64,000 nucleotides of DNA from positions 310,001 through 374,000 of the forward strand of contig NZ_FONV01000002.1 of assembly GCF_900113015.1 (NCBI RefSeq), read 5' to 3'. Source of the DNA: Actinoplanes philippinensis. Lineage in GTDB: Bacteria > Actinomycetota > Actinomycetes > Mycobacteriales > Micromonosporaceae. Positions 4,713-22,355 of this stretch are shown piece after piece. The stretch's first letter is position 1, and each line of letters begins with the position of its first letter. A program made the translations under genes and the position numbers. The notes under the pieces were generated by a model that ran no database searches, was not told where the DNA came from, and saw only the letters and a list, made by a program, of their open reading frames with translations.

Positions 4713-4868
4713 TCAGTTCGGCAGGCCGATGCAGCAGCCGGTGCCGCCGTTCGCCTGAGCCGGTGCGGCCGTCGACACGGCGCCGGCCACGAAACCGGCG
4801 GCGACCGCGACGACGACGGCCACCCGCAGCCGGCGCATCAGGCCCCGTGCGTTCTTCTTCTCGTTCAT
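4713..4868 (-). CDS. 51-residue exported micropeptide, possible extra RiPP precursor
   Basis: Small gene of 51 codons. The protein starts with the charged stretch MNEKKNARGLMRRLR, has a hydrophobic helix (about residues 17-35) and an Ala-rich STAAPAQA signal-peptidase-like site. Only NGGTGCCIGLPN is left after it. The start is well supported: GGGGGAGG lies 7 nt before the ATG at 4868. It is 60 bases downstream of the radical SAM gene on the same strand, so it may be the last gene of that arm. The Cys-Cys pair and Gly-rich tail resemble a modifiable core, but the Sec-type signal is unlike the NHLP leaders of the other two precursors. It could instead be a small secreted peptide of unrelated role. 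Confidence 0.6.
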   Translation of the reverse strand: MNEKKNARGLMRRLRVAVVVAVAAGFVAGAVSTAAPAQANGGTGCCIGLPN

Positions 4869-4883
4869 GGTGGTGCCTCCCCC

Positions 4884-4897
4884 GGGCCGATCGGCCC
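4884..4897. promoter_or_regulatory. 14-bp perfect palindrome before the micropeptide gene
   Basis: GGGCCGATCGGCCC lies between the radical SAM stop and the ribosome-binding site of the 51-residue peptide. It could be an operator or a short RNA hairpin that separates the two genes. Only the symmetry is visible. No function is demonstrated. Confidence 0.3.
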
Positions 4898-4928
4898 CGC
4901 CGTGTTGTGGCTGATGCACCAGACACTG

Positions 4929-7073
4929 TCACGCGGCGGCACGCCCGGGCATGGGTGCGTTGCACGTATGTTTACCGTCGGCGGGCGCCCCGGTGACCGG
5001 AATGCGGCGGATCGCCCGGCGTGCGATCAGGAAGTCCCAGATCCGGTCGGCGGCCGCGGACGGCAGCATCCAGGCGCGGCGGCGGGCGGCGGCCAGCGTC
5101 ACCGGGCCGGTGAAGATCTTGAGGAACGGCAGCGTACGGCGGGGCAGCAGCAGGATCCGCCCGTCCCGCCGGCGGAACGCCACCCGCTCGCCCGGCTCCT
5201 CCGGCGCGCCACCCTGGATCTCGGCGACCCGGCCCAGCACCTCGGGGTCCACATCGGCCAGCAGTTCGCCGTCGAGGACGAACTCGCGGTCCTCGTCGTC
5301 CGGGCCGCGGCGCACGCTGCGTTCCAGCAGATCGCTGACGCCGGTGCCGTACCGGTCGTGGTAGAAGAACGTGTGCGGGGTGTCGGTGCTGCTCACCCAC
5401 GGCCGGGGGTACTCACCCATGTAGAGGCCGAGCTTGTCGGCCATCACCTCGTCGCGGGCCTTGCGGGTGACCGGTTCGTCGAACATCAGGGTCCGGTCGA
5501 TGTCGGCGCCCTCGATGGACCGCACGTCGGTGATCCCGAACCGATCCGGCTGCTTGGCGACGATGGCGCCCGGGGTGAGCACGAACTCGCCGAGGCCGCC
5601 GAAGGTCCACAGCTCCCGGTTGTCCCGCAGGAAGCTCACCGACTCGCGGGCCTCCTCCAGGGTCTCGGTGGGAAAACCGGTGAAGCCCATGATCTGTACG
5701 CCGATCCCGGCCCGGTGCATCGAGGACATCGTCTGGCGGACCTGCGCCGGCCGGGTGCCCTTGTCGATGAGGTCGAGGATCCGCTGGTTGCCCGACTCGA
5801 AACCGACCGAGATCGCCGTGCACCCGGCCCGTTTGAGCAGCGCGCACCGCTCGTCGGACCAGTACTTCTCGAGCCGGATCTCGGCGCCCCAGCGCACGTC
5901 GATGCCCCGCTCGACGACCTTCTCGGCGAACCGCAGGATGGCGGCCGGGGCGAGCACGTCCACCGAGAAGTAGACGAACCGCGCGAACGTCGCCAGCTGC
6001 TCGACGTCGCGGATCATCCGGTCCACGGTGTCCTGCCGCCACGGGCTGGTCGGGCCGTCGGTGTTCAGCCCGTAGTCGCAGAACGTGCACTTGTTCCAGT
6101 AACAGCCCCGGGTCGGCGAGTAGTAGACGAACCGGGTCGGGCTCAGGTAGCTGTCCCACGGCAGGTTGGCGAAGTCGGGGGTGGGCAGCTCGCCGAGCTT
6201 CTCGTAGTGCAGCATCGGCAGGGCGCGGACCGCCCCGTACCGCGGATGCAGCCGCACGTTGGGGTGCTTGGTGGGAATTGTTCCGGCGGCGAGGGCGTCG
6301 AGGATCTCGGTGTACGCGCTCTCGCCCTCCCCCACCACCAGCGCGTCGAAGTCGGCGAACAGCTCGAACAGGCGCCGGGGGTCGCGCAGGTTCTTGTAGC
6401 AGTCGGAGACCTCGGTGCCGCCGGCGATCAGGAAGACGCCGGGCAGCTCCTCGCGGATCCGCCGGGCCAGCCACAGCGCGAACGGCAGCTGCCACTGGTA
6501 GGTGATGCTGATCCCGACCAGGTCGAAGTTCCCGGCCCGCAGGCGGGGCAGCAGCGACTCGCGGTAGTACGGCTCGAACGGCCGGCTCAGCCGGGACAGC
6601 ACCGCCGGGTCGGTGAGCGCCCGCAGCGACCCGATCTCGATCTCGTGCGGCGCGTTCAGCTGGAAGCCGTTCTGGAACTGGCCCGGGATGCCGGTCGCGC
6701 CGAGACAGTTCATCCACGCCGACACCCCGTCGACCGCGCGGTGGTACTCGTCCAGGTCGTAGAACCGCCGCGGGTCCTGGAAGGTGGCGACCGCGTCCCG
6801 TACCCCCTCCGGGTCCGGGGTCCCGGCCTGCAGGAGCCGGGCACGTGCGGTGAGGTCCGCGGTGGTCCGGGCCCGGCTCAGCGCCCGGTCGAGCCAGTCG
6901 AGCGCGGACGGTGTGTAGGAGTGGTGGAACGCCTCGATGTTGGCGTCGATGACGGTGGCCGGCGCGTGCCCGACCGACCGGGCGTAGGAGTCGAGGTAGT
7001 TCAGCGAGTGGTATCCGGACGTCGGGTCGGTCAGCGGCGGGTAGATGAGTGCCGCGTTCGGGCTGCCGGTCAT
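4929..7073 (-). CDS. B12-binding-domain radical SAM enzyme, RiPP maturation type
   Basis: 714-residue enzyme. Residues 1 to about 255 look like a cobalamin-binding Rossmann domain (YPPLTDPTSGY at the start, LVGISITYQW, FLIAGGTEV, VVGEGE), but no DxHxxG is seen. The radical SAM core follows with Cys324, Cys329 and Cys332 in RGCYWNKCTFCDYG, an unusual CX4CX2C spacing. Later motifs include AISVGFESGN and a C-terminal region typical of RiPP-maturation radical SAM proteins. The likely chemistry is C-methylation or another radical change of a peptide. The ATG at 7073 overlaps the tfuA stop (ATGA), which fixes the start and implies translational coupling. Family placement is good, the reaction is inferred. 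Confidence 0.85.
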   Translation of the reverse strand: MTGSPNAALIYPPLTDPTSGYHSLNYLDSYARSVGHAPATVIDANIEAFHHSYTPSALDWLDRALSRARTTADLTARARLLQAGTPDPEGVRDAVATFQDPRRFYDLDEYHRAVDGVSAWMNCLGATGIPGQFQNGFQLNAPHEIEIGSLRALTDPAVLSRLSRPFEPYYRESLLPRLRAGNFDLVGISITYQWQLPFALWLARRIREELPGVFLIAGGTEVSDCYKNLRDPRRLFELFADFDALVVGEGESAYTEILDALAAGTIPTKHPNVRLHPRYGAVRALPMLHYEKLGELPTPDFANLPWDSYLSPTRFVYYSPTRGCYWNKCTFCDYGLNTDGPTSPWRQDTVDRMIRDVEQLATFARFVYFSVDVLAPAAILRFAEKVVERGIDVRWGAEIRLEKYWSDERCALLKRAGCTAISVGFESGNQRILDLIDKGTRPAQVRQTMSSMHRAGIGVQIMGFTGFPTETLEEARESVSFLRDNRELWTFGGLGEFVLTPGAIVAKQPDRFGITDVRSIEGADIDRTLMFDEPVTRKARDEVMADKLGLYMGEYPRPWVSSTDTPHTFFYHDRYGTGVSDLLERSVRRGPDDEDREFVLDGELLADVDPEVLGRVAEIQGGAPEEPGERVAFRRRDGRILLLPRRTLPFLKIFTGPVTLAAARRRAWMLPSAAADRIWDFLIARRAIRRIPVTGAPADGKHTCNAPMPGRAAA

Positions 7074-8395
7074 CGGCGCACCACCTCGAGGGGTTTGATC
7101 GGGGGGAACCACGGCGGCCGGAGCACCCGCAGGTAGCCGATGAGGAATCCGGCGAGCTCACGGAGCTGGTCCAGGTCGCGGAAGCCGCGGTCCCAGGCGG
7201 CCGCGGTCAGCCCGGCCGGGTCGCAGCCCCAGCGGTCGGCCAGCACCGCGTCGACGACCTCGGTCCGGAACCGGGCCGGGCGCCCCTGCCGCCGGGTGAG
7301 GTTGGCCTGGATCGCCTTCGCCGTCGTGACGGCCTGGCGGGCGGTGGCCAGCACGTCATCGCGCCGCAGCTCGGGCGGCACCATCGCGGGCGAGATCTGC
7401 CGGGTCTCGGCCGCGCCCAGGCTGCGGACCAGCAGCCGCAGCGTCGCCTCGGCCGGCGGCAGATCCGCCTCGTCCGGGGTGAGCCACGAGCCGTCCGGGA
7501 CCGGCACGCTCCGGCCCAGCCGGTCGGCGGTCCGCAGGGCCAGCTCCTCCAGGCCGGGATCGTCCGGGCGGGCGCCGGTGAACCGGGCCAGCACCCGCGC
7601 CCGGTGCAGGGCCGCGAACCCGGGGTGCAGCACCCGCAGCGCCACCAGCAGCTCCCGCTCGGTGACGTCGTCGCTCTGCTCGTACCGGGAGCGCCAGCCC
7701 TCCAGGTAGGTGGTGTGCACGTGCTCGATCGGGGTGTCGCCGGGACCGGCCGGGCGCAGCGCGGGGCCGCCGGACGCGGCCGCCCGCAGCAGCCGCCGCG
7801 CGTCGTCGGCCTTCGCGTCGATCGGGTGATCGCGCAGCCACGGCCGGAGGCGGTCCATCGCGGCGCCCGCGCGCAGCGCCAGGGACCGCCAGGTGAGCAG
7901 CCGGAACGGGATCTCCGCGGCGGCCGCCAGCAGCAGCTCGCCCTCCTCCGGGCCGATCGCGCGGGCCCGCAGCGCCGCGCGGACCGCGATCCGGATGTTG
8001 ACGAGAGGCTCGCTGAGCGACCGGTAGCCGTCCTCGCCGAGCCCGTGCACGACGGCGACCTCGTGATCACCGGTGACGACGCCGTCCCGGTACAGCTCGA
8101 AGACGTCGCCGACGCCACGCATGCCGTAGGTGTGGAGCTCGGCGGCGCGCAGGGCGCCCATGCTGCTGCTGCCGGCCACGGTGACGCCGCGTTCGAGCAG
8201 CAGCAGGATCTCCCGGTGCCGGACCGGCGGCCGGTGCATGAAGAAGCCGTCGACGATCAGCACCCGGTCGTCCGGGCCGGCGCCGAGGCGGAGCAGGTCG
8301 CCGTGCCCGACCGGCGGCAGGATCCGGGCGGCGGGATGCAGCGCGGCCGCCTCGCCGGCGGGCAGGCTGGGGCCGAGGAAGACGAAGTCAGTCAC
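7070..8395 (-). CDS. tfuA: TfuA-like protein, partner of the adjacent YcaO
   Basis: 441 residues. The N-terminal third matches the TfuA domain: FVFLGPSLP at the start, IVDGFF, GSSSMGALRAAEL and a VFELYRDG stretch near residue 105. TfuA proteins act with stand-alone YcaO enzymes and are known from thioamide-forming systems (thioviridamide-type RiPPs, methyl-CoM reductase). The remaining 300 residues are a poorly conserved helical region. The GTG start at 8395 overlaps the end of the ycaO gene by 8 bases, and the stop overlaps the radical SAM start, so the three are tightly coupled. Thioamidation is inferred from the pairing, not shown. Confidence 0.85.
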   Translation of the reverse strand: MTDFVFLGPSLPAGEAAALHPAARILPPVGHGDLLRLGAGPDDRVLIVDGFFMHRPPVRHREILLLLERGVTVAGSSSMGALRAAELHTYGMRGVGDVFELYRDGVVTGDHEVAVVHGLGEDGYRSLSEPLVNIRIAVRAALRARAIGPEEGELLLAAAAEIPFRLLTWRSLALRAGAAMDRLRPWLRDHPIDAKADDARRLLRAAASGGPALRPAGPGDTPIEHVHTTYLEGWRSRYEQSDDVTERELLVALRVLHPGFAALHRARVLARFTGARPDDPGLEELALRTADRLGRSVPVPDGSWLTPDEADLPPAEATLRLLVRSLGAAETRQISPAMVPPELRRDDVLATARQAVTTAKAIQANLTRRQGRPARFRTEVVDAVLADRWGCDPAGLTAAAWDRGFRDLDQLRELAGFLIGYLRVLRPPWFPPIKPLEVVRR

Positions 8396-9578
8396 GGCCG
8401 GCCCCCGGGCGCAGCGACAGGGCGGTGTCGTCGGCCAGGCGCAGGCCCGGCGCGATCACCCGGCTCACCGGGATGCCGATGTCGTGGTGGGTCAGGTCGA
8501 CGACGAACGGCTCCGCGCCGGTGTGCTCCAGGACGCGTCCGGCGACGTGCTGCACGAGAGCCTCCAGATCCTGGCCGAGGGTCACGATCGCGGGATCCGC
8601 CGGCCGCACCGGCCGCAAGGGCAGATCAACGACGGGCGGGGGTACGGCGTACGGGTCGGCGGGCAGGTAGACCTCACCGGAGATGTCGTCGCGGGCCCCG
8701 CCGACGGTGACGAGGCGGGACTGGGCCGCCTCGGCGAGCGCCCGCCCGACCGCCCGGCCGGGATCGACGTGGCAGCCGAAGCCACCGAAGATCATCGGGA
8801 TCGAGGTGTCCCACATCGACGCGCCGTAGCAGGGCAGCCCGGTCGGCCCGGTCAGGTCGACCACCTCCACCCAGCTGGACGAGCCGCGGATCGCCGCGAG
8901 CACGGCCACCGTCGACGGGTCGTCACAGGTGTCCGGGTCGACGTAGTGGCGGTCGGCGAGGCCGGAGACCGCGAACGGGGTCATCGCGTCCCGCTCGACG
9001 AGTTCGAGGAGCGCGTGCAGGGTCGCCTCGGCACGGGTGTTGCCGGTGGCCAGCCCGCTGCTGGTGGGGGTGAAGAGGACGTCGTTCGGTGTCGCGGCGT
9101 CACCGGACGCGACGGTGAAGTCGAGGTAGACCAGCTCGTACGGGACCAGGTAGGTCCGGCCGGTCAGCAGCCCGCGGCCGGCGATCCAGTCCAGCACGGT
9201 CCGGCCGGTGAGCGGGGAACGCGGGGCCAGGTGCAGGCGGCGCGGGTCGTAGCCCAGGTCGAGATCGGCGGCGGGAGCGCGTACGGCCACGTCGAGCCGC
9301 GGGTTCTCGGCGTGCCAGCCCTCGATGCTCTCCATGGTGGCGGCGACCCGGGACTGGACCGGGGTGAGCCCGGTGCCGACGGTGACCGCCAGGGTCCGGC
9401 CGGTGGGCCGGTAGGCCACGTGCACCGGCAGCCCCACCTCGTCGAGGCCGGTGATGTCGGCGACCCGGGTGATGCCGAAGGCCGGCAGCAGCGGCCGGAT
9501 CCGTTCCCAGGTCTGTTCGGCCGGCGCTGCCCGGAAGGAGCCGGGCCGGGTCGGGTGGTCGTTGACGCTCGTCGGCAC
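8388..9578 (-). CDS. ycaO: Stand-alone YcaO, TfuA-associated type
   Basis: 396-residue ATP-dependent peptide-backbone-activating enzyme. The N-terminal stretch (ITRVADITGLDEVGLPVHVA) is typical of TfuA-partner YcaOs. ATP/Mg residues lie in AATMESIEGWHAE (near residue 85) and TLHALLELVERDA (near residue 195). It lacks the E1-like C domain that cyclodehydratases need for leader docking, which fits a thioamide-forming or other non-azole role. GGGGAGG sits just upstream of the GTG start at 9578. It lies 70 bases after the first precursor gene and overlaps tfuA by 8 bases. A classical azoline role is less likely because the cluster has a separate fused cyclodehydratase. Confidence 0.9.
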   Translation of the reverse strand: MPTSVNDHPTRPGSFRAAPAEQTWERIRPLLPAFGITRVADITGLDEVGLPVHVAYRPTGRTLAVTVGTGLTPVQSRVAATMESIEGWHAENPRLDVAVRAPAADLDLGYDPRRLHLAPRSPLTGRTVLDWIAGRGLLTGRTYLVPYELVYLDFTVASGDAATPNDVLFTPTSSGLATGNTRAEATLHALLELVERDAMTPFAVSGLADRHYVDPDTCDDPSTVAVLAAIRGSSSWVEVVDLTGPTGLPCYGASMWDTSIPMIFGGFGCHVDPGRAVGRALAEAAQSRLVTVGGARDDISGEVYLPADPYAVPPPVVDLPLRPVRPADPAIVTLGQDLEALVQHVAGRVLEHTGAEPFVVDLTHHDIGIPVSRVIAPGLRLADDTALSLRPGAGRD

Positions 9579-9648
9579 GGGTGTCCTCCCCTGGCTGGTG
9601 GTGGTGTGCGGCCGGCGCGACGGGCGTCCCGCCGCGCCGGCCCGGCCG

Positions 9649-10002
9649 CTACTTCGCCTGGTAGAGGTTGATGTTGACGTTGATGCCGGCGGCGATCAGC
9701 TCGAGGTCCTCGTCGGTCAGCTCGCTCAGGTCGATCGGCGCGTGCTCGGGGACGCGCAGCACGTGCGTCCCGGGGGTGCCGTGGAAGGCCTGCAGGATCT
9801 CGGTGCGGGTCAGCAGTTCCTCCGGCTGGCTCCGGTCGACGGTGACGGTCGCGGCCGGATCGACCGGCAGGCCGGCCTCGACGGCGAACTGCTTCGGGTC
9901 GGCGAGCAGGGCGGCCAGGGCCGCGTCGTCGCCCCAGACCTTCGCCAGCAGGCCCTGGTACGCCCGGTCGAACTCGGAGAAGTCGGTCTCTTCGGCGCTC
10001 AT
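9649..10002 (-). CDS. NHLP-type RiPP precursor A (core INVNINLYQAK)
   Basis: 117-residue precursor. Residues 10-105 resemble a nitrile-hydratase-alpha-like leader (NHLP): AYQGLLAKVWGDDAAL, LLADPKQFAVEAGL, then THVLRVPE and LSELTDEDLELIAAG. The leader ends with Ala-Gly at 105-106, where a C39 protease could cut. The remaining core, INVNINLYQAK, has no Cys, Ser or Thr, so azoles cannot form there. Backbone thioamides or radical SAM changes remain possible. GGAAGGA lies 8 nt before the ATG at 10002. It is the gene directly upstream of ycaO-tfuA-radical SAM. It could alternatively be a scaffold or helper peptide, not a product precursor. Confidence 0.8.
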   Translation of the reverse strand: MSAEETDFSEFDRAYQGLLAKVWGDDAALAALLADPKQFAVEAGLPVDPAATVTVDRSQPEELLTRTEILQAFHGTPGTHVLRVPEHAPIDLSELTDEDLELIAAGINVNINLYQAK

Positions 10003-10137
10003 GACACACGTCCTTCCGGTACTACTGCGAAATGGGGTGACGGCCCGAAAGGGGCCGTGATGCCGGGGCCGAAAAGCGGCGGTGGCGTGACCCCGACGCT
10101 AGGAACGGCCGGACGGCCGGGGCAAGGGAAGCGGCGG

Positions 10138-10161
10138 TCACGGCACGGAACGGTGCCGTGA
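10138..10161. promoter_or_regulatory. Palindromic site upstream of precursor A
   Basis: Inverted repeat with perfect 9-bp arms TCACGGCAC / GTGCCGTGA around a 6-base spacer, 136 bases before the precursor A start. The core GGCACGGWWCGGTGCC (W = AA here) recurs with TT at 10674-10689 upstream of precursor B. This supports a shared operator. It could also act as a hairpin terminator or attenuator between the two precursor genes. Confidence 0.5.
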
Positions 10162-10199
10162 CGCCCCGGCCACGGAGCCGATCGATGTCACGGCCCGGA

Positions 10200-10565
10200 T
10201 CAGGTGCAGCAGCAGGGGCAGCAGCAGGCGCCGGTCGGGTCCACCCCGGCGACCACGCTGTCCAGCTCGTGCTCGGACAGCTCCTGCTCGTCCAGCTCGT
10301 CCAGGGCCGGCACGTAGAGCAGGAACGGGCCGCCCGCGGCGACGGCGTCCTCCCACGCGCGGATCTGCACGTCGATGTCCGGGTCCACGTGCTGCGCGTC
10401 GCGGACCACCACGACCGGGACCTGCGGCGGCAGGATCAGGTCGTGCTCCGCGAGCAGCCGGTGCGGGTCGTCGGTGAGCAGGCGCTCCTGGTCCGGCTCC
10501 GACCACACACCGGCGACCAGCCGGCCGTACGCGGTGATGAAGAGTGCGCGTTCTGACGGGTCCAT
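10200..10565 (-). CDS. NHLP-type RiPP precursor B with Cys-rich core (CCCPCCCT)
   Basis: 121-residue precursor. The leader (residues 9-107) has the NHLP pattern: ALFITAYGRLVAGVWSEPD, LLTDDPHRLLAEHDLILP, PFLLYVPA, then EQELSEHELDSVVAG. After Ala-Gly at 106-107 the core is VDPTGACCCPCCCT, with six Cys and a terminal Thr. This is an ideal substrate for a TOMM cyclodehydratase and dehydrogenase, which would give contiguous thiazoles. GGAG is placed 9 nt before the ATG at 10565. It is the first gene of the minus arm and faces the lipoprotein gene across the divergent promoter region. Confidence is high for a RiPP precursor, and the modification state is inferred. Confidence 0.9.
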   Translation of the reverse strand: MDPSERALFITAYGRLVAGVWSEPDQERLLTDDPHRLLAEHDLILPPQVPVVVVRDAQHVDPDIDVQIRAWEDAVAAGGPFLLYVPALDELDEQELSEHELDSVVAGVDPTGACCCPCCCT

Positions 10566-10776
10566 CGTGTTCGTCTCCGCTCTCACGGGGCCTGTGGAAT
10601 GCGCCCATCGTCGGCGCGGAGCCGGGCCCCGGCAGAGCACGGCATCGATCGGTGCCACGGTGCCGCGCGCCGGGGCACGGTTCGGTGCCGTGCCCGGCCC
10701 GGCGCCGGAACCTCGCCGAATACTCGGGGCACGGCGGAGGACGCCGGACAGGCACGACGAGGATCAGGTGGTCGAT
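10566..10776. promoter_or_regulatory. Divergent control region of the RiPP cluster
   Basis: This 211-bp gap separates the two arms and must hold both promoters. It contains several GGTGCC-type elements: a loose pair near 10637-10656, and a strong inverted repeat at 10673-10695 with 8-bp arms GGGCACGG / CCGTGCCC. The latter shares the core GGCACGGWWCGGTGCC with the site at 10138. I could not assign convincing -35/-10 boxes in this GC-rich DNA. Confidence 0.5.
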
Positions 10777-11760
10777 ATGGCAAGCCGGACGCGTGGCGGG
10801 CTCGGGCGGATGGTGATCCCGGCGGTCCTCTTCCTGACCGTCGCCGGGTGCGCGGACCCGGGCGCCGAGCCGGCCGCGGCCCGCCCGGAGCCCGCCGGGC
10901 CGAGCGCCGCCGGGTTCGACCCGGCAGCGGTGCTGGCCGAGTTCGACGCGGCCGACTCGGCGGCCTCCCAGGCGGGCGACGGCGAGAAGCTGGCCGTCTG
11001 GGAGACCGGGCCGGCCCTGCAGAACAGTCTGGCCGGGGTGAAACGGGCCCGCCTCAGCAAGCGGGTGCTGCCCGGGTTCAAGCATCAGGAGCCGGTGTTC
11101 GCGGTGTCCGGGTCGTGTTTCGTGGCCTCGGCGAAGATGGCCGTCGACGGAGAGGACCGGCCGCGCGCCGACGTCGGCCACTTCACCCGCGCCGGCGACG
11201 GGCGGTGGCAGCTGAGCCACCACGTGATGATCTCCGACGAGCTGGTGGCGGCGACCGGGGCGTTCCGGCAGGCGACCGCGCACCCGACCGACGAGCTGCT
11301 GGACGCGGGGCGGCGTACCGCCCTGACCGGGGAGGTCTTCAGCCGCAGCATCGCCGGCGCGGCCGACACCACGGTCCTGGCCCGCAGCGCCGTCCTCGAC
11401 GACCAGCTGGCCGCCGGGTGGTCCATCTACACCCAGCAGATGACGGCCGCCGCCATGACCGTCGACCGGCGGCTGACCGCGTCGGAGTGGGCGCCGTGCG
11501 CGGCGAGGACCGGCGACGGGGTGGTCGGCTTCCTGACCCTGAACGTGGTCGACACCATCGTCTCCACCCGGGACGGCGCCGACGCGGTCCTCGCGCCACC
11601 GGCTCCCGACCTGCTGGCCACCGGCCGCACCACCGCCGTGAAGGCCCACACCATCGCCGTCTCCCGGGTCGAGACGTTCCTGGTCCGGGTCCCGGAGTCG
11701 GGGCCGGCCGCGGTGCTGGGCCTCACCGACGCGGCCACCGAGATCAGCGCCACCGGCTGA
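10777..11760 (+). CDS. Cluster-linked lipoprotein of unknown function
   Basis: 327 residues. It begins with MASRTRGGLGRMVIPAVLFL and a lipobox LTVAGC (lipidated Cys near residue 26), then a Pro/Ala-rich linker and a mixed alpha/beta domain (from about residue 45) that I do not recognise. It includes FAVSGSCFVASAKMAVDGED and GDGRWQLSHHVM. ATG 10777 is chosen because AGGTGG lies just upstream and the lipobox sits at the right distance. A GTG 9 bases earlier is possible. It is the first gene of the plus arm, ahead of the cyclodehydratase. A surface role such as immunity, or capture of the product, is only a guess from position. Confidence 0.7.
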   Translation: MASRTRGGLGRMVIPAVLFLTVAGCADPGAEPAAARPEPAGPSAAGFDPAAVLAEFDAADSAASQAGDGEKLAVWETGPALQNSLAGVKRARLSKRVLPGFKHQEPVFAVSGSCFVASAKMAVDGEDRPRADVGHFTRAGDGRWQLSHHVMISDELVAATGAFRQATAHPTDELLDAGRRTALTGEVFSRSIAGAADTTVLARSAVLDDQLAAGWSIYTQQMTAAAMTVDRRLTASEWAPCAARTGDGVVGFLTLNVVDTIVSTRDGADAVLAPPAPDLLATGRTTAVKAHTIAVSRVETFLVRVPESGPAAVLGLTDAATEISATG

Positions 11761-11847
11761 CCACCACGGCCGGGATCGGTGCCATCGCTGGAGACGGCGG
11801 GGACGTCCGGCCGAGAATCGCCGTTACCCGGCTGCGAGGTGAGATCG

Positions 11848-14127: not shown

Positions 14128-14144
14128 TCGTTCCGGAGGGGCCC

Positions 14145-15611
14145 GTGCCATCGACCACCGCAGTGCCGACGGAACCGGAGACCGGCGCGATCCGCCGGCT
14201 GCCGGTCCGGGAGGAGTACCGCTTCCGCGAGCGGACCACGCTGAGCAACGGCGCCGGCGACGCGATCACCGTCCGGTACGGGCGGTTCCAGCTGCATCTG
14301 GAACGGCTCGGGCTCGGCCGCCGGGCGATGCTGCTGCGGCTCGCCGACGAATGGCTCGACGACGACGCCGTGCAGCACCTGGTCGCCACGGTCGAGGGCG
14401 AGAACCGGATCCTGCGGGCCCAGGTGCTGCTGCGCCGCCTGGTCACGCACGCCTGGCTGCGCCGCCGCCTGTCCGCCGGCAACCGGCCGCTGCTGGAGAT
14501 CGACCCGCAGGGGCTGGGCGCGTCGGTGCTGCCGCCACCGGCACGGCACCGGCCGGGCGTACGGTATCGGATGTCCCGCCTGGCCCGGATCGACGCCGAC
14601 GGTGACGTGCTCGCCGCGCTGAACCCCGCACACGCCGTCGTCGTCGGCTGTCCCGACCCGCGGGTGGCCGGGCTGCTGGCGACCGCCGCCGCCCAGGGCT
14701 GTGACGTGGACCGGGCGGCCGCGGTGCTCGGGGTGTCCGCCCCGGTGGCCGGCCGGGTCCTCGACGAGCTGCTCGGCGCCGGGATCCTGGAGGAGCCGGG
14801 CGCCCCGGCCGCGCCCGGCGTCTTCTGGTCGCCGGCCGAGCTGGAGGTCCATCACCGGTCCCGGGTCGGGCGGCACGCGCTGCCGGTCGGCGGGACCTAC
14901 CGGTTCCGGGACCGGCTGCCCGCCGAGCCGCTGCGGCGCGCCTTCCCGGACGCCCCGGCCATCGACCTGCCGGAGCCCGATCTGGACGCGGTCGCCGCGG
15001 CCGAGCCGGCGCTGACCGACGTGATCCGGGCCCGCCGGTCGATCCGCGCCCACGACGACGCCTGCCCGATCACCCTGGACCGGCTCGCCGAGTTCCTGTA
15101 CCGGGTGCAGGCCACCCGTCCGGCCGGGCAGCACGACGGGATCGAGGTGGGGCACCGGCCGTACCCGGGTGGCGGCGGGCTGTACGAGCTGGAGATCTAT
15201 CCACTGGTGCTGAGCTGTGCGGGGCTGCCGGCCGGGCTGTACCACTACGACGGGACCGCGCATCAGCTGCGCCTGCTGGCCCCGGCCGGGCCGCTCACCG
15301 AACGGATGGCCGGATACGCCCGCGCCGCCGCCGCGATGGCCGGCCCGCCCCAGGTGCTGCTGGTGATCACCGCCCGGGTCGGCCGGCTGATGTGGAAGTA
15401 CGAGGGGATCGGCTACCCGATGATCCTGAAGCACTCCGGCGTGCTGACCGAGCTGATGTACCTGGTGGCGACCGCGATGGGGCTGGCGCCGTGCGCGCTG
15501 GGCTCCGGCGACTCGGCCGCGTTCGCCGAGCTGTCCGGTGTCGACCCGCTCGCCGAGCCGGCGGTCGCCGACTTCGCGCTGGGCTCGGCGCCGCCCCGGG
15601 AGCCACGATGA
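14145..15611 (+). CDS. SagB-type FMN dehydrogenase (azoline oxidase)
   Basis: 488 residues. The C-terminal half is a nitroreductase-fold SagB/ThcOx domain: DVIRARRSIRAHDD near residue 295, RPYPGGGGLYELEIYPLVLS, GLYHYDG, and a LAPCALGSGDS tail that matches FMN-binding dehydrogenases which oxidise azolines to azoles. The N-terminal 250 residues are an extra domain (YRFRERTTLSNGAGDAITVR and a winged-helix-like middle) seen in longer SagB proteins, perhaps for substrate docking. The GTG start at 14145 follows GGAGGGG. The stop overlaps the next gene's ATG (ATGA), so it is translationally coupled to the HlyD-like gene. It probably works on the cyclodehydratase product. Confidence 0.9.
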   Translation: MPSTTAVPTEPETGAIRRLPVREEYRFRERTTLSNGAGDAITVRYGRFQLHLERLGLGRRAMLLRLADEWLDDDAVQHLVATVEGENRILRAQVLLRRLVTHAWLRRRLSAGNRPLLEIDPQGLGASVLPPPARHRPGVRYRMSRLARIDADGDVLAALNPAHAVVVGCPDPRVAGLLATAAAQGCDVDRAAAVLGVSAPVAGRVLDELLGAGILEEPGAPAAPGVFWSPAELEVHHRSRVGRHALPVGGTYRFRDRLPAEPLRRAFPDAPAIDLPEPDLDAVAAAEPALTDVIRARRSIRAHDDACPITLDRLAEFLYRVQATRPAGQHDGIEVGHRPYPGGGGLYELEIYPLVLSCAGLPAGLYHYDGTAHQLRLLAPAGPLTERMAGYARAAAAMAGPPQVLLVITARVGRLMWKYEGIGYPMILKHSGVLTELMYLVATAMGLAPCALGSGDSAAFAELSGVDPLAEPAVADFALGSAPPREPR

Positions 15612-16417
15612 GGTTCCGCAAGCAGGCGCTACGTCACCTGGAGCAGCCGGAGAGCCTGGACCAGGTGGCCCGGCTGACCACCGTGCCGAGCTGGCTGCTC
15701 ACCGTCGCGCTGGTGGTGACGGTGCTGGCCACCGGCGCGTGGACCACGACGGCGACGCTGGACCGGGAGGTCACCGCGGGTGGTGTGCTGATCCACCCGC
15801 ACGGGGTGTCGGACTTCGACGCCGCGGAGACCGGCCGGGTCGTCAAGGTGTGGGTGGACCGCAACGAGCCGGTCGCCAAGGGCACCCCGATCTACAGCGT
15901 CCAGGGCGACTCGGGCCCGATCGTCACGGTGCCGGCGCCGTGGGACGCGTACGTGGTGAGCCTGCTGATCGCCGAGGGCCAGGTGGTCGAGCGCGGGGCC
16001 CGGGTCGCCGAGCTGGAGCGCCTGGACGCCCCGGGCGACGCGCTGCAGGCGGTGCTGTTCGTGCCGGCCGCCAGCGCGCCGGCGCTCTCCGCGGGGCAGC
16101 CGGCGCACGTCGACGTGGCCGCTGTCTCCACCACCGTCTTCGGCACCCTGCAGGGCGAGGTCGGCACGGTCGGCGCGTTCCCGGAGACCGAGGACTCGCT
16201 GCGGGCGTTCCTCGGCTCGGGCCGGGACGTGCGGCCGTTCCTGGCCGGCGGCAGCGTGGTCCGGGTGGTGGTGCTGCTGCACACCGACCCGCGCTCGCCG
16301 ACCGGCCTGCTCTGGTCGAAGGCGTCGCCGCCGTTCCGGCTCACCTCGATCAGCGAGGTCGGCGGCCGGATCGTGGTGGGCCGGGACCGGCCGCTCGACT
16401 GGGTGCTGGGCCGGTGA
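15608..16417 (+). CDS. NHLM-type HlyD-family secretion protein
   Basis: 269-residue membrane-fusion-like protein. It has one N-terminal membrane helix (about residues 30-50, LLTVALVVTVLATGAW). The rest is extracytoplasmic and beta-rich, with a biotinyl-lipoyl-like half (GRVVKVWVDRNEPVAKGTPI and VVSLLIAEGQVVERGARVAE). It matches the short HlyD proteins of NHLM export systems and probably bridges the ABC exporter to the cell wall. The ATG overlaps the sagB stop and its own TGA overlaps the GTG of the next gene. These overlaps place it in a tight operon with the exporter. Family assignment is based on context plus fold-type motifs. Confidence 0.85.
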   Translation: MRFRKQALRHLEQPESLDQVARLTTVPSWLLTVALVVTVLATGAWTTTATLDREVTAGGVLIHPHGVSDFDAAETGRVVKVWVDRNEPVAKGTPIYSVQGDSGPIVTVPAPWDAYVVSLLIAEGQVVERGARVAELERLDAPGDALQAVLFVPAASAPALSAGQPAHVDVAAVSTTVFGTLQGEVGTVGAFPETEDSLRAFLGSGRDVRPFLAGGSVVRVVVLLHTDPRSPTGLLWSKASPPFRLTSISEVGGRIVVGRDRPLDWVLGR

Positions 16418-18588
16418 GCGCGCCCGTGATCGACCTGGACCGGGCGGCCCCGGAACGGCCGCGCCGCAAGCGGGTGCGTACGCCGACGCTGATCCAGATG
16501 GAGGCGGTCGAGTGCGGGGCCGCGTCGCTCGGCATCGTCCTGGCCCACCACGGCCTGCACGTGCCGCTGGAGGAGCTGCGGGAGCGGTGCGGCGTGAGCC
16601 GGGACGGCTCGAACGCGTCCACGGTGCTCAAGGGCGCCCGGCACTACGGGATGACCGCCAAGGGCTTCCAGATGGAGATCGACAAGCTCGCGTCGGTGCC
16701 GCTGCCGGCCATCGTCTACTGGAAGTTCCAGCATTTCCTGGTGCTGGAGGGGATGGGCCGCACGGTCCGGGTGAACGACCCGGCGACCGGCCCGCGCCCG
16801 ATCAGCTGGGCGGAGTTCGACGAGGGCTACACCGGCATCGTGCTGACGCTGAGCCCGGACCCGGAGCGGTTCCGGCGCGGCGGGACCCGCTTCCGGCCCT
16901 GGGCCGCGCTGGCCGCCCGCTGGCGGGGGCTGCGCGCGGTGGCCGTCCAGGCGATCCTGCTCGGCCTGGTGATGGCGGTGGTCGGCCTGACCATGCCGGC
17001 GGTGGTCCGGATCTTCGTCGACCAGGTGCTGCTCGGCGGGAGCGGGGCGCTGGGCGGGCTGCTCGCCGCGATGACCGGCGCGGCGGCGGTGACGTTGCTC
17101 GCGGCGCTGGCGCAGGAGCGCCTGATGGTACGGGCCGAGACCGCCATGGCGCTGAGCACCGCGGCCCGGTTGTTCCGGCGGCTGATGCGCCTGCCCGCCG
17201 CGTTCTTCGACCAGCGGCAGGCCGCCGACCTGACCCGCCGGCTCCGCAGCACCGACGTGGTGGCCGACGTGGTCACCCGGCGGCTGACGCTGACCCTGGT
17301 GGATGTGGCGCTCGTCGTGGCGTACGGCGGCCTGCTCTGCCTCTACGACCCGCTGCTGGGCGCCGTCTCGGTGCTGCTGTGCGGCCTGAACGTGCTGGCC
17401 CTGCGGTGGGTGTCGGCGCTGCGCACGACCGCGGTGGCGAGCCTGCAGGCCGAGCGCAGCAGACTGTTCAGCGCCGTCCACACCACCATCCAGATGATCG
17501 AGACGGTCAAGGCCGGCGGCGCCGAGCAGCACAGTTTCCAGCAGTTCAGCTCGCGGGCCGCGGCGGTCACCAACGATCAGCAGCGGCTCGGGCGGCCCAC
17601 CGCGATCCTGTCGGTGGTGCCGGCGCTGCTGGCCACCCTGAACACGGCGGTCCTGCTCGGGCTGGGCGGCCCGCGGATCCTGGCCGGCAGTCTCAGCATC
17701 GGTGTGGTGCTCGGCATGCAGACGCTGGTGGTGGCGATGAACCGGCCGGTCGCCGCGCTCACCGCGGTCGGCGCCCAGGTGCAGGAGATGTCCGCCGACC
17801 TGAGCCGGCTGCGCGACGTGGAACGTTATCCGGCGCCCGATCCGGCCGCGACGGATCCGCCGGAGCCGCTGGACGGGCACCTGCGCATCGAGGGGCTCAC
17901 CTTCGGCTACAACCCGCTCGCCGCGCCGCTGATCAGCGACTTCGACCTGGACCTGCCGCCCGGCGCGCGGGTGGCGCTGGTGGGCCGCTCGGGCAGCGGC
18001 AAGTCGACGGTCGGGCGGCTGGTGTCCGGCCTCTACCGGCCGTGGTCGGGGCGGATCACCGTCGACGGCCGGGAACGCGACGTCATCGACCCGGGCCTGT
18101 GGGCGGCGACCGTGGCGATGGTCGATCAGGAGCAGATTCTCTTCGAGGGCACCGTACGGGAGAACGTGACGCTCTGGGACTCGTCGATCCCGGACGACGA
18201 CGTGGTCGACGCGCTCACCGACGCCGCTGTGCTGGACGTCGTGCTGTCGCGTCCGGGTGGTCTGGGCGCCCGGGTCGACGAGGGCGGCCGGAACTTCTCC
18301 GGCGGGCAGCGGCAGCGCCTGGAGATCGCCCGGGCGCTGGTCCGCCGCCCGCGCCTGCTGGTCCTCGACGAGGCGACCAGCGCCCTGGACGCGCAGACCG
18401 AGCAGGCCATCGACCATCACCTGCGCCGTCGCGGGGCCACCTGCCTGATCGTGGCGCACCGGCTGTCCACGATCCGCGACTGCGACCTGATCGTCGTGCT
18501 GGACGGCGGCCGGGAGGTGGAGCGCGGCACCCACGACGAGCTGGTGGCGCGGGACGGCCACTACGCGCGACTGGTCCGGGACGAGTGA
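16414..18588 (+). CDS. NHLM peptidase/permease/ATP-binding ABC exporter (C39 domain)
   Basis: 724 residues. The N-terminal C39 peptidase has Cys34 (MEAVECGAASLG), His107 (YWKFQHFLV) and Asp122 (VNDPATG), so the full catalytic set is present. The membrane domain (about residues 160-450) follows, then the nucleotide-binding domain with Walker A GRSGSGKST, signature FSGGQRQR, and Walker B LLVLDEATSALD. It should remove the leader after the Ala-Gly motif during export of the modified peptide. The GTG start at 16414 overlaps the HlyD stop (GTGA). Its stop lies inside a 42-bp tandem repeat that runs toward the next ABC gene. Confidence 0.93.
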   Translation: MSAPVIDLDRAAPERPRRKRVRTPTLIQMEAVECGAASLGIVLAHHGLHVPLEELRERCGVSRDGSNASTVLKGARHYGMTAKGFQMEIDKLASVPLPAIVYWKFQHFLVLEGMGRTVRVNDPATGPRPISWAEFDEGYTGIVLTLSPDPERFRRGGTRFRPWAALAARWRGLRAVAVQAILLGLVMAVVGLTMPAVVRIFVDQVLLGGSGALGGLLAAMTGAAAVTLLAALAQERLMVRAETAMALSTAARLFRRLMRLPAAFFDQRQAADLTRRLRSTDVVADVVTRRLTLTLVDVALVVAYGGLLCLYDPLLGAVSVLLCGLNVLALRWVSALRTTAVASLQAERSRLFSAVHTTIQMIETVKAGGAEQHSFQQFSSRAAAVTNDQQRLGRPTAILSVVPALLATLNTAVLLGLGGPRILAGSLSIGVVLGMQTLVVAMNRPVAALTAVGAQVQEMSADLSRLRDVERYPAPDPAATDPPEPLDGHLRIEGLTFGYNPLAAPLISDFDLDLPPGARVALVGRSGSGKSTVGRLVSGLYRPWSGRITVDGRERDVIDPGLWAATVAMVDQEQILFEGTVRENVTLWDSSIPDDDVVDALTDAAVLDVVLSRPGGLGARVDEGGRNFSGGQRQRLEIARALVRRPRLLVLDEATSALDAQTEQAIDHHLRRRGATCLIVAHRLSTIRDCDLIVVLDGGREVERGTHDELVARDGHYARLVRDE

Positions 18589-18681
18589 GAGGGCGGGCCG
18601 CCGGAGAAGCGACCGGTCCGGGACGAGTGAGAGGGCGGGCCGCCGGAGAAGCGACCGGTCCGGGACGAGTGAGAGGGCGGG
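18573..18681 (+). repeat. 42-bp tandem repeat spanning the exporter stop codon
   Basis: Two full identical 42-bp units (18573-18614, 18615-18656) and a 25-bp partial third (18657-18681). Each carries the same in-frame TGA (18586, 18628, 18670). The unit begins GGTCCGGGACGAGTGAGAGG. The last copy supplies the purine-rich segment that serves as ribosome-binding site for the ABC gene at 18686. The unit is 14 codons, so slippage preserves frame. Confidence 0.9.
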
Positions 18682-18685
18682 TGGC

Positions 18686-21508
18686 ATGACGGTCGAGACG
18701 GTCACCGGGGACGGCGCGCTGCTGGTCGTGGACGCGCCGAGCGACCTGTTCCTGGTCCGCACGCGAGCCGGCGGCGCGCGGTCGCGGCGGCACTTCGTGG
18801 CCCGGATCCCGGTCGGCGGGCTGGTTCCCGACGTGGCCGGGGCCGGGGTGTGGCGGCTGCTGGCCGTACCCCTGCCGGGTGGGCGTCTCGACCGGCTGCC
18901 CGCACCGGCGGACGGCGCCGAGGCGGTCGATCTGGCGTTGTCCGCGCTGGCCGGGGCGGTGCGCGGCGACCGGGAGCCGCCCCGCGACGCGCGTGCCCTC
19001 TACGCCGGGCAGGTGGAGGCGGCCGGCCCGGGCTCGGTGTTCACCGGCACTCCGGCGGTGTGCTGGGCCCGCGGCGCCGGCGGCCGGCTGGTCCGCAACG
19101 ACGGCGGTCCGGACGAGACGTTCGAGGAGGGCGTGCCGGTGCTGCTGGCCGGGCGCGACTGGGTACGGCCGGAGCGCGGCGGCGCGGTCGAGGCGTGCTC
19201 CAGCGACGACCTGCTGCGGTCCGGGGAGCTGTGGACGGCGGTGCGCGACCAGACCGTACGCCTGTTGCGCCTGGTCGAACGGCAGGGCGAGGCGGCCGAC
19301 GCGGCGCTGCTGACGTCGCTCACCGCCCGGGAGAGGGCGAACCGGGCGGCCGTGTCGCGCGCGACCCGGATCGCGTCCGGTCTGGTCGGCGCCCGTGTCA
19401 CCGCCGATCGGGCGGTCGACGGCGAGCGTCTCGGGCGGGCGGTGGCCGCGTTGCGCCTGATCACCGGAGCGGGCGGCCCGCCGATCGTGGAGCCGGCCGG
19501 CCGCCGGGCCGAGCCGGCCGACCTGGACGAGGCGGTCCGGGCGGTGGCCCGCAGCTCCTCCCTGCACCTGCGGGACGTGCAGCTGCCGGAGAGCTGGTGG
19601 AAGCAGGATCTCGGCCCGCTGCTGGGCCGGCGTGCCGAGGGCGGCGGGACGACGGTGGTGTGCCTGGTCCACCGGCGCGGGCGGTACCGGGAGGTCGATC
19701 CGGAGACCGGTGCGGTGCTCGCCTCCGGCCGGGCCGCCGCCGCGGGGGTGTCCCGGACCGCCACGCAGGTGCAGCGCCCGCTGCCGGTCGAGGCGTCGGT
19801 TCCGGGGGTGTTCCGGCTGGGCGGCGCGGGCGGCGGCGCCGATCTGGCCGCGCTGGCCGGCTGCGGGGTGGTCGTCGCGGCGCTGGCGCTGGCCGCCCCG
19901 ATCGTCACCGGCCGGGTGCTGGGCGCGCTCGCCGAGCGGGTGTCGATGTCCGGCCTGACCTGGTCGGCGCTGCTGCTGGTGGCCTGTGGCGGGGTGGCCG
20001 CGCTGGTCGGCGTGGCCACGAATCTGCGGATGCTGCGGGTCGAGGGCCGCGTGGAGCACGGGGTGCAGCTGGTCCTCTGGGATCGCCTGATGCGCCTGCC
20101 GGTCCGGTTCTTCCGGGACACCGGCAGCGGCGAGCTCGCCAACACGCTGCTCGGGGTCACGTTCGCCCGGGAGGCGCTGTCCGGGGTGATCCTGCTGCTG
20201 CTCACCTCGTCGCTGACCGCGCTCGCCATGCTGGCGCTCGTCTGGGTGCTGAGCCCGCCCCTCGGACTGGCCTCGACCGGTCTGGCGCTGGCCGCGCTGC
20301 TGCTGGTCGGCGTGCTGGGCCGGGTGGTGATCGTGCGGCAGCGGCGGGCGTTGCCGGCCGAGCACCGGGCGGTGTCGAGCGCGCACCAGCTGATCAGCGG
20401 AATCTCGAAGATCAAACTCGCGGGGGCCGAGCAGCGGGCGTTCGCCCGGTGGTTCGAGCAGACGGCGTACGCCCGGAGCACCCTCAACCGGGTCCGCGGT
20501 GTGCAGGCCGTGTTGCGGGCGGTCGCCACGGTGCTGCCGATCGCCGGTCAGCTGCTGCTGTTCACGATCCTCGCCGGCCCGCTCGCCGGCACCCTGGCCC
20601 CGGACGACTTCTTCGCCCTCGACGTCGCGTTCCTCATGCTGGTCGGCGCGCTGCTGGTGATCGTGTCCGGCAGTGTCGAGCTGCTGGCCGCGCTGCCCCG
20701 CCTGGCCGAGCTGCGGGTGGTGACGGCCGGTGTGCCGGAGCGGACCCCGGACCGGGCCGACCCCGGCGACCTGCGCGGCGAGATCACCCTCCAGGAGGTC
20801 ACCTTCGGGTACGGCCCGGACGCGCCCGCGGTGATCGACGACGTGACCCTGCGGGTGCCGGCCGGCGCGTTCGTCGCGATCGTCGGCCCGAGCGGCTGCG
20901 GCAAGTCCACGCTGCTGCGCCTGCTGCTCGGGTTCGAGTCGCCGGCACAGGGCTCGGTCTACTACGACAACCAGGATCTCGCCGAGCTGGATCTGCAGGC
21001 GGTGCGCCGGCAGTGCGGGGTGGTGCTGCAGGACGGGCAGCTGTTCGCCGGGACGCTGCGCGACAACGTGTGCGGCGCGGCCTCGTACAGCCTGGAACGG
21101 GTCCTGGAGGCGGCCCGGCTGGCCGGCCTGGACGACGACATCGCGCACCTGCCGATGGGGGTGGCGACGATGGTCCCGCACGGTGGCGGCACCCTGTCGG
21201 TGGGCCAGCGGCAGCGCGTCCTGATCGCCCGGGCGCTGATCCACCGGCCGCGGATGATCTTCTTCGACGAGGCGACCAGCGCGCTCGACAACCGCACCCA
21301 GGAGCGGGTCACCGAGAGCACCCGGCAGCTCAGCGCCACCCGTCTGGTGATCGCGCACCGGCTGTCCACGGTGCGGCACGCCGACCTGATCGTCGTGATG
21401 GACAAGGGCCGGATCGTGCAGCAGGGCACCTTCACAGCCCTGATGGCGCAGAAGGACGGGCTGTTCTTCCAGCTGGCCCGCCGGCAGCTGGTGACCGGGG
21501 ACGAGTGA
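18686..21508 (+). CDS. NHLM second ABC transporter ATP-binding/permease protein
   Basis: 940 residues. It has a long N-terminal cytoplasmic region (residues 1-390, no C39 Cys) that fits the second component of NHLM exporters. A membrane domain (about 395-670) and a nucleotide-binding domain follow, with GPSGCGKST (Walker A), VLQDGQLF (Q-loop), LSVGQRQR (signature) and MIFFDEATSALD (Walker B). It probably forms a heterodimer with the peptidase-containing exporter. GAGAGGGCGGG lies upstream of the ATG at 18686. Its stop codon is directly abutted by the stop of the convergent MerR-type gene at 21509, with no gap. Confidence 0.92.
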   Translation: MTVETVTGDGALLVVDAPSDLFLVRTRAGGARSRRHFVARIPVGGLVPDVAGAGVWRLLAVPLPGGRLDRLPAPADGAEAVDLALSALAGAVRGDREPPRDARALYAGQVEAAGPGSVFTGTPAVCWARGAGGRLVRNDGGPDETFEEGVPVLLAGRDWVRPERGGAVEACSSDDLLRSGELWTAVRDQTVRLLRLVERQGEAADAALLTSLTARERANRAAVSRATRIASGLVGARVTADRAVDGERLGRAVAALRLITGAGGPPIVEPAGRRAEPADLDEAVRAVARSSSLHLRDVQLPESWWKQDLGPLLGRRAEGGGTTVVCLVHRRGRYREVDPETGAVLASGRAAAAGVSRTATQVQRPLPVEASVPGVFRLGGAGGGADLAALAGCGVVVAALALAAPIVTGRVLGALAERVSMSGLTWSALLLVACGGVAALVGVATNLRMLRVEGRVEHGVQLVLWDRLMRLPVRFFRDTGSGELANTLLGVTFAREALSGVILLLLTSSLTALAMLALVWVLSPPLGLASTGLALAALLLVGVLGRVVIVRQRRALPAEHRAVSSAHQLISGISKIKLAGAEQRAFARWFEQTAYARSTLNRVRGVQAVLRAVATVLPIAGQLLLFTILAGPLAGTLAPDDFFALDVAFLMLVGALLVIVSGSVELLAALPRLAELRVVTAGVPERTPDRADPGDLRGEITLQEVTFGYGPDAPAVIDDVTLRVPAGAFVAIVGPSGCGKSTLLRLLLGFESPAQGSVYYDNQDLAELDLQAVRRQCGVVLQDGQLFAGTLRDNVCGAASYSLERVLEAARLAGLDDDIAHLPMGVATMVPHGGGTLSVGQRQRVLIARALIHRPRMIFFDEATSALDNRTQERVTESTRQLSATRLVIAHRLSTVRHADLIVVMDKGRIVQQGTFTALMAQKDGLFFQLARRQLVTGDE

Positions 21509-22258
21509 TCAGCCCAGGTCCAGCACGGCGGCGGTCTCCACCAGCATCACCGTGCCCTGGCCCGAGCGGCGGCCCACGATGTCCACCACCGACGTCGGCC
21601 CGCGGTTCTCGGCCACCACCCGGAACGCCTCGGTGAGCAGGTCGATCAGGCCCTGCGCGAGCAGCTCGGCCGCGTCGCTCCACTCGTCCCAGGTGGCGGC
21701 ACGCGGCCGGGCCGGGTCGCCGGGCAGCGACAGGATCCGGTCGCCGGTCGCGCGCAGCAGCTCGTCGACCGGGCGGCCGATCCGGTCCAGCACCTCGACC
21801 AGAACCTGCACGGTCTGCCGGGCCGGGAGCCCGGAACGGTGCAGCTCCAGGGCCGCGCGCAGCGCCCGTGGGCGGACCAGCTGAACGGCGCCGTTCTCCC
21901 GCCACGCGACCACGCCGTGCCGGGTGAGCGCGTCGACGAGGGCCGGGGACTCCGCGGCGAGCCGCTGCATCAGCGGGCCGAGGGTGTCGCTGCGGGGCTG
22001 GCCGGGGCGTACCCCGAACATCGCCTCGATCGCGGTGAGGTTGAAGCCCTGCCGTTGCAGCGACAGGATGGTCTCCAGCCGGCGCAGGTGGTGTTCCTGG
22101 TAGACGACGGTGCGGCCGCGCCGGACCGGTGGGGCGAGGATGCGGCGGGCCTGGTGCGCCCGGATGTTCCGCGGCGACATGCCGACCTGGCGGCTCAGCT
22201 CCTCGATGGTGAACTCCTGCTGCGCCGTCGCCGGCCCTTCCACACGCTGGACGGTCAT
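21509..22258 (-). CDS. MerR-family transcriptional regulator
   Basis: 249 residues. An N-terminal MerR winged helix (about residues 17-85): FTIEELSRQVGMSPRNIRAH, then RRGRTVVYQEHHLRRLETIL and LQRQGFNLTAIEAM. A long C-terminal helical domain follows. It holds no obvious effector cysteines, so the signal is likely organic or peptidic. The ATG at 22258 follows GGGGGGAG at 4 nt. It converges on the exporter gene with stop next to stop. It is the likely candidate to bind the shared GGCACGGWWCGGTGCC-type palindromes of the RiPP arms, but that link is an inference from position only. Confidence 0.82.
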   Translation of the reverse strand: MTVQRVEGPATAQQEFTIEELSRQVGMSPRNIRAHQARRILAPPVRRGRTVVYQEHHLRRLETILSLQRQGFNLTAIEAMFGVRPGQPRSDTLGPLMQRLAAESPALVDALTRHGVVAWRENGAVQLVRPRALRAALELHRSGLPARQTVQVLVEVLDRIGRPVDELLRATGDRILSLPGDPARPRAATWDEWSDAAELLAQGLIDLLTEAFRVVAENRGPTSVVDIVGRRSGQGTVMLVETAAVLDLG

Positions 22259-22355
22259 CGCGCTCCCCCCGTTCCCGCCCTGGCTGGGCTCGGGGACCAT
22301 CGTCACGCGGGGGTTCACCTACCCACATCGGGGCGTGGCACGTACTTTTCTCACC

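Follow-up and report, generated by a model that had tools for sequence, protein, structure and literature searches.

Proteusins such as polytheonamide combine an NHLP leader with a B12 radical SAM enzyme and a radical SAM epimerase, and streptolysin S-type cytolysins combine a poly-Cys core with SagB and a cyclodehydratase. A 64,000-nucleotide stretch of Actinoplanes philippinensis DNA (contig NZ_FONV01000002.1, positions 310,001 to 374,000; hereafter the window) carries a locus with features of both: between window positions 4929 and 21508 a fused cyclodehydratase, SagB, a stand-alone YcaO, TfuA, a B12-type radical SAM enzyme, an NHLM exporter, and two NHLP-like precursors, designated preA and preB, lie together. 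Gene calls were based on GC-frame and on Pfam and NCBIfam profile scores judged against curated cut-offs, and the matches across this interval bore out every part named in a preliminary description of the locus, including its three enzyme sets for ribosomally synthesized and post-translationally modified peptides (RiPPs) and its NHLM exporter. The same description had the enzymes jointly making one hybrid product, a proposal opposed by two precursors with opposite core behavior, by a window preA core that cannot be cyclized, and by the occurrence of the two halves of the locus apart. We lean, with some reservation, toward two RiPP pathways that have merged round one exporter and would run in parallel, giving two chemically different peptides and not one heavily modified one.

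The locus shares with the proteusins an NHLP-type leader, the B12 radical SAM enzyme, and, in preA, an Asn/Val-rich core. It differs in that no radical SAM epimerase of the proteusin (polytheonamide) type was found among the cluster open reading frames scanned, which hold a single Radical_SAM protein and have TfuA-YcaO instead. The likeness to streptolysin S-type systems lies in the poly-Cys core and SagB/cyclodehydratase, and is tempered by the NHLP-type leader, the fused cyclodehydratase, and NHLM export. Closer are the NHLP/NHLM TOMM systems, which have in common with the window an NHLP-type leader, a fused cyclodehydratase, SagB, and NHLM export genes (PMC2887384, PMC4603692). Tandem NHLP-Burk precursor pairs have been proposed to give a two-peptide product but, unlike the window locus, lack close NHLM exporter homologues (PMC2887384), and the available sections of these reports assign neither peptide a second enzyme set (TfuA, radical SAM) (PMC2887384, PMC4603692). 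All TfuA-linked Network 7 precursors of the 2019 RiPPER survey carry nitrile hydratase domains and come from Actinobacteria, according to the portion of the survey at hand (PMC6511847). The family of the window locus probably falls within this network, with which it shares a TfuA-YcaO pair beside NHLP-type precursors; the same portion states domain content alone, and gives no product, no split between two precursors, and no analysis of a cyclodehydratase or radical SAM enzyme (PMC6511847). TfuA clusters with an extra YcaO or cyclodehydratase, and thioamidated thiopeptides, likewise join a thioamidating YcaO-TfuA pair to an azole-forming set, but mostly carry lanthipeptide-type dehydratases, and NHLP precursors, NHLM exporters, and an invariant/variable precursor pair go unmentioned in the available text (PMC8120280). 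In the open-licence PubMed Central literature, subscription papers and preprint servers being outside scope, no description of the two-branch locus was found and, as the preliminary description had supposed, no described product with this combination.

The minus strand holds, from the divergent promoter region outward, preB, preA, YcaO, TfuA, the B12 radical SAM gene, the small peptide gene pepC, and a large AAA/LuxR (LAL-type) regulator gene. The plus strand holds a lipoprotein gene, the fused cyclodehydratase, SagB, an HlyD-type protein, ABC1 with its peptidase, and ABC2, after which a MerR regulator gene lies on the minus strand. preB (121 aa; 10200..10565, minus strand) has 131 homologues at E <= 1e-5, and its predicted core VDPTGACCCPCCCT (10203..10244, minus strand), which follows ..VVAG, contains near-invariant CCC, P, and CC columns. 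When conservation was computed on 120 listed of the 131 homologues plus the window, the CCC-P-CC columns of the core ACCCPCC were identical in 118-121 of the 121 sequences, and mean entropy was lower in the core (0.72 bits) than in the leader (1.42 bits). CCCPCCC or CACCCPCC, sought as text in open-licence PubMed Central, turned up in a single unrelated paper. preA (117 aa; 9649..10002, minus strand; 67 homologues at E <= 1e-5) immediately precedes YcaO in the window, and the columns of its predicted core INVNINLYQAK (9652..9684, minus strand), which follows ..IAAG, are hypervariable. In an alignment of 66 sequences including the window, from which the partial homologues P0312 and P0313 were left out, mean entropy was higher in the core (2.09 bits, an approximate value as core columns are gappy) than in the leader (1.50 bits). 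The cores range from ADNNVNVSLCIFAETA to SGAFVVIIIIVP at their extremes, and the loci L040 and L046 each carry a pair of preA-type genes. Of 65 preA tails, 5 were unparsable and omitted; among the remaining 60, 19 are without Cys and 9 without Cys, Ser, and Thr. The window core, with zero Cys, Ser, or Thr, is of the latter type and offers the cyclodehydratase no residue to cyclize. The Cys/Ser/Thr-rich core typical of TOMM and linear azole peptides is a property of preB and not of the window preA. The two leaders are related: a search with either profile also recovers the other peptide. Against the NHLP leader model TIGR03793, preA scored 20.3 and preB 18.1 bits, under the curated cut-off of 50.9, which makes both NHLP-like only, and the NCBIfam scan reported no match of either to TIGR03795 (NHLP-Burk two-peptide TOMM). 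Both were accepted as genes despite these weak scores because of their conserved homologues.

The fused TOMM cyclodehydratase (11848..14127, plus strand) unites a leader-binding E1-like part, as expected of a TOMM enzyme, with a YcaO domain (TIGR03604, 225.4 bits, cut-off 219.25; TIGR03882, 121.2 bits, cut-off 36.9) and aligns nearly full length with LynD and TruD in the PDB (E 3.6e-124 and 3.8e-122). Together with the SagB-type FMN dehydrogenase (14145..15611, plus strand; TIGR03605, 149.1 bits, cut-off 78.4), it would likely turn the near-invariant, Cys-rich core of preB into a polyazole peptide. The stand-alone YcaO (8388..9578, minus strand; PF02624, 208.2 bits, over cut-off), a predicted thioamidation partner of TfuA, scored 171.1 bits with TIGR03266 (McrA-glycine thioamidation) vs 108.2 bits with TIGR03604, both under cut-off, and its nearest solved chain is the thioamidating YcaO MJ1094 (6pe3), with E-x-x-E segments aligned. 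That this enzyme is nearest MJ1094 and the cyclodehydratase nearest LynD/TruD counts in favor of two branches. TfuA (7070..8395, minus strand; PF07812, 136.1 bits) matches PDB 6xp8, deposited as TfuA of peptide thioamidation, by sequence (E 1.3e-26) and by fold (E 4.1e-12); its helical C-terminal extension of about 240 residues lies outside this alignment and found no match when searched against the PDB. The TfuA and YcaO genes are adjacent and overlap, and so form the gene pair of thioamidated RiPPs. The radical SAM protein (4929..7073, minus strand) has the radical SAM and B12-binding domains (PF04055, 59.6 bits; PF02310, 39.6 bits; over cut-off) of the B12 radical SAM C-methyltransferases of RiPPs and is predicted to be the C-methyltransferase of the preA branch; with 86.5 bits against a cut-off of 281.85 it falls outside the curated subfamily TIGR03975. 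The motif RGCYWN[K/R]CTFC, of CX4CX2C spacing, was present in all 120 homologues listed of 955, and by identity the closest named relatives are Actinoplanes xinjiangensis (89%) and A. sandaracinus (86%). The variable core of preA would likely be thioamidated by YcaO-TfuA and C-methylated by the radical SAM enzyme.

Some further occurrences of these enzymes were noted in passing. The source genome has three YcaO-domain genes, two of them at the locus and the third (L002) on another contig, C40, near SagB-type matches at C40:72457-72957. A close YcaO-TfuA pair (about 50% identity) in G043 adjoins a short peptide, which we take to be thiopeptide-like. Distant radical SAM relatives (44-49%) in L058 and L053 adjoin a second radical SAM gene, accompanied in L058 by a Flavoprotein-family gene.

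With the radical SAM protein as query, 71 loci were recovered from 84,980 species genomes. Twenty of these (L031-L049 and L051), from Actinoplanes, Winogradskya, Paractinoplanes, Micromonospora, and Dactylosporangium, all have preB, preA, YcaO, and TfuA matches; L050 is a 7.9-kb contig that starts just ahead of the radical SAM gene, and no TfuA match was obtained in 48 remaining radical SAM loci of the 71. A preB profile search of 320 genomes of the family yielded 36 matches, 35 with the radical SAM enzyme, 35 with the stand-alone YcaO, and 34 with the cyclodehydratase, the exceptions being G008, which has a leader remnant only (L111), and G128. Cyclodehydratase, YcaO, radical SAM enzyme, and both precursors occur together in 34 of the 320 genomes, the window's own included, so that the rarity implied by the preliminary description gives way to a recurrent, conserved unit; the second NHLP-type peptide adjoins preB in 33 genomes by profile search and in G172 by locus fetch. 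The radical SAM and cyclodehydratase genes span 9.2-17.6 kb end to end on a single contig in 34/34, sharing a strand in 30 and diverging in the 4 of the window's clade, which indicates that the window arrangement is a rearranged form of a conserved locus. That linkage is kept across the 34 loci although gene order differs also counts for the two-branch reading. Ten complete loci (L112-L121) all have TfuA, SagB, the exporter, and both precursors, some of them cut by the end of the stretch.

The two halves are also found apart. G128 (L110, L153) has a single precursor, of preA type and ending ..AAGYNAATAPGNNNNNHNNVIVLIV, with YcaO, TfuA, MerR, ABC2, ABC1, the HlyD-type protein, and a radical SAM gene split in two frames; the stand-alone YcaO is its one YcaO-domain gene, and its genome gave no cyclodehydratase match at E <= 1e-60. 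A preA profile search of 394 genomes of the class matched nine: the window, G062, and seven more distant. Six of the seven (G428, G637, G607, G716, G631, and G462) encode poly-Cys NHLP peptides with endings such as ..NCCCCPCCCCT, ..CNYCCCPCCCCT, and ..SCCCCCSSPCCCCT, and in all six an adjacent cyclodehydratase-SagB pair lies 1.4-13.8 kb away on the same contig. TfuA is absent from the G716 and G462 genomes and lies on another contig in G428, G637, G607, and G631. Among the distant poly-Cys relatives, scores of 36.5 and 38.6 bits were recorded for the NHLP leader model (cut-off 50.9) and, for four, 17-21 bits for TIGR03795 (cut-off 41). A search of 396 genomes of the phylum for more preA-only loci matched four: the window, G062, G483, and G904. 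In G483 (L138/L141), the seventh of the more distant class genomes, SagB, an NHLM exporter, and MerR adjoin an NHLP peptide that lacks a Cys-rich core; in G904 a poly-Cys peptide adjoins a partial cyclodehydratase at a contig end. In Streptomyces, L052 and L057 hold the stand-alone YcaO, TfuA, and the radical SAM enzyme without NHLM or cyclodehydratase matches, which again counts for two branches; a precursor was sought in these two loci and not found. The cyclodehydratase tracks the poly-Cys peptide, YcaO-TfuA and the radical SAM enzyme track preA, and SagB tracks neither cleanly. A clean split that placed SagB on the preB side was considered and dropped, as both G128 and G483 have SagB but no cyclodehydratase nearby. 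The poly-Cys loci of the Streptomyces-type genomes G428, G637, G607, G716, and G631 (L134-L137 and L139) form a distinct NHLP locus type, and downstream of the peptide they carry ABC transporter, P450, amine oxidase, and Rieske-type genes (by Pfam in L134, and by sight of the open reading frames in L135-L137 and L139).

Genes, linkage, core patterns, and the separate occurrence of cyclodehydratase with preB and of YcaO, TfuA, and radical SAM with preA are seen directly; every reaction, the cleavage sites, regulation, and self-protection are deduced from sequence, and this is one of several points that weigh against two parallel pathways. Both precursors fall short of the NHLP cut-off, the entropy of the preA core is only approximate, and the methyltransferase role of the radical SAM enzyme is a family-level prediction whose best solved match, the methyltransferase TokK in the PDB, is weak. 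Cys is present in 41 of the 60 parsed preA cores, which leaves room for azoles on preA in relatives. The preA-only arrangement comes from one genome, G128, whose locus may be decaying, given a radical SAM gene in two frames; a search of its genus for further preA-only loci gave 1/4 genomes, G128 itself, with YcaO absent from the other 3. Outside the family, the poly-Cys peptides resemble preB only distantly (34-41% for the five best preB matches). Finally, G128 keeps SagB (45%) without any cyclodehydratase, neither a cyclodehydratase nor a lipoprotein match having been found upstream of this SagB, and no cyclodehydratase was found near SagB in G483; the SagB of G128 slightly lowers confidence in two branches.

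This last point bears on how far the enzyme sets are separate. SagB may serve both branches or preA, oxidizing the azolines of preB in complete loci and also dehydrogenating something on preA, so that the modules would overlap, as its retention beside the exporter in G128 and G483 suggests; that retention in two loci could be a relic, however, and SagB adjoins the cyclodehydratase in 6/6 poly-Cys loci without nearby TfuA, which leaves the overlap a tentative proposal. The enzyme sets could go further and all work on a single precursor, or on both, placing azole, thioamide, and C-methyl groups on one chain. Linkage of all genes in 34 genomes, the mutual relatedness of the two leaders, and the SagB of G128 are consistent with such a hybrid pathway, and thioamidated thiopeptides are a known case of two YcaO types acting on one peptide, in the available part of that work (PMC8120280). 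We nevertheless regard it as unlikely: Cys, Ser, and Thr are all missing from the window preA core, some preB-type loci have no TfuA nearby, and one preA locus has no cyclodehydratase. Given two precursors, and halves that also occur separately, one triply modified product is ranked behind two branches. It is quite improbable that YcaO-TfuA and the radical SAM enzyme act on some other target, such as pepC or a cell protein like the McrA of methanogens, with preA only cleaved of its leader. YcaO and TfuA do score best with McrA-thioamidation models, though under cut-offs, and in the window clade pepC neighbors the gene for the radical SAM enzyme; set against this, preA lies directly ahead of the window YcaO, preA, YcaO, TfuA, and radical SAM occur together in the 20 loci and in G128, and pepC is found in 4 loci only.

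Two parallel pathways would share their exit. The NHLM exporter comprises an HlyD-type membrane fusion protein (15608..16417, plus strand; TIGR03794, 109.5 bits, below the cut-off of 156.2), the ABC1 peptidase/permease/ATPase (16414..18588, plus strand; TIGR03796, 880.1 bits, over the cut-off of 853.3), and the ABC2 permease/ATPase (18686..21508, plus strand; TIGR03797, 662.1 bits, below the cut-off of 709.4), and is predicted to cut both leaders after their ..AG/..GG ends and to export both products. At the ABC1/ABC2 boundary (18567-18681) a 42-base unit is repeated 2.7 times, and the sister locus L116 has about 30 bases there. The lipoprotein (10777..11760, plus strand), with predicted NTF2-like folds from weak partial matches, is a candidate self-protection protein that might protect the producer, and its gene lies beside the cyclodehydratase in 8/8 fetched loci long enough to show it.

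The MerR-family regulator beside the exporter (21509..22318, minus strand; PF13411, 51.6 bits) is kept in G128 and in 8/8 complete loci long enough to include it. The LAL-type regulator (1737..4625, minus strand; Pfam AAA_16, 81.6 bits; GerE, 40.9 bits) has 86-91% identical copies in three sister loci, and a comparable match beside the cluster is absent from the other complete loci, which confines it to the window clade. A 26-base palindrome upstream of preA (10137..10162; 9-base arms, zero mismatch), a candidate operator, has a second copy between preB and the lipoprotein gene (10672..10696); under the strict pattern, applied to the window only, GGCACSGNNCSGTGCC occurs twice in 64 kb vs 0.01 expected. 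With the looser pattern used for relatives, similar sites were found in L031, L032, and L120, and the scanned loci of Micromonospora, Winogradskya, and Dactylosporangium had none. The palindrome may serve the clade-specific LAL regulator as its operator, or may be a MerR site that has diverged, and the MerR regulator, joined in the window clade by this repeat upstream of each precursor, would probably couple both branches to one signal. The gene pepC (4713..4868, minus strand) encodes a 51-aa peptide with a signal-like N-terminus and the tail NGGTGCCIGLPN; it was read in L116, L117, and L120 and is limited to the window and these three closest relatives. The preliminary description began the cluster at 4713 and so took in this separate small secreted-peptide gene; the cluster genes themselves start at 4929. 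Further along, at 23774-25288 on the plus strand, a trypsin and FG-GAP protein contains a 156-base tandem repeat in about 4 copies.

A two-branch locus would caution against assigning every enzyme of a hybrid cluster to a single product. It is conceivable, if rather speculative, that the locus specifies a two-component weapon or signal, in which an invariant polyazole partner from preB is combined with a fast-evolving, thioamidated and C-methylated, strain-specific partner from preA under one exporter and one regulator. If two pathways do run in parallel, a conserved locus of actinobacteria would hold a near-frozen precursor beside a freely varying neighbor, each with its own backbone chemistry and both with a shared exit. 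Such a locus would provide a defined system for studying how one cell directs related leaders to different YcaO enzymes, and also for the possible pair action of differently modified peptides and the role of SagB without a cyclodehydratase.

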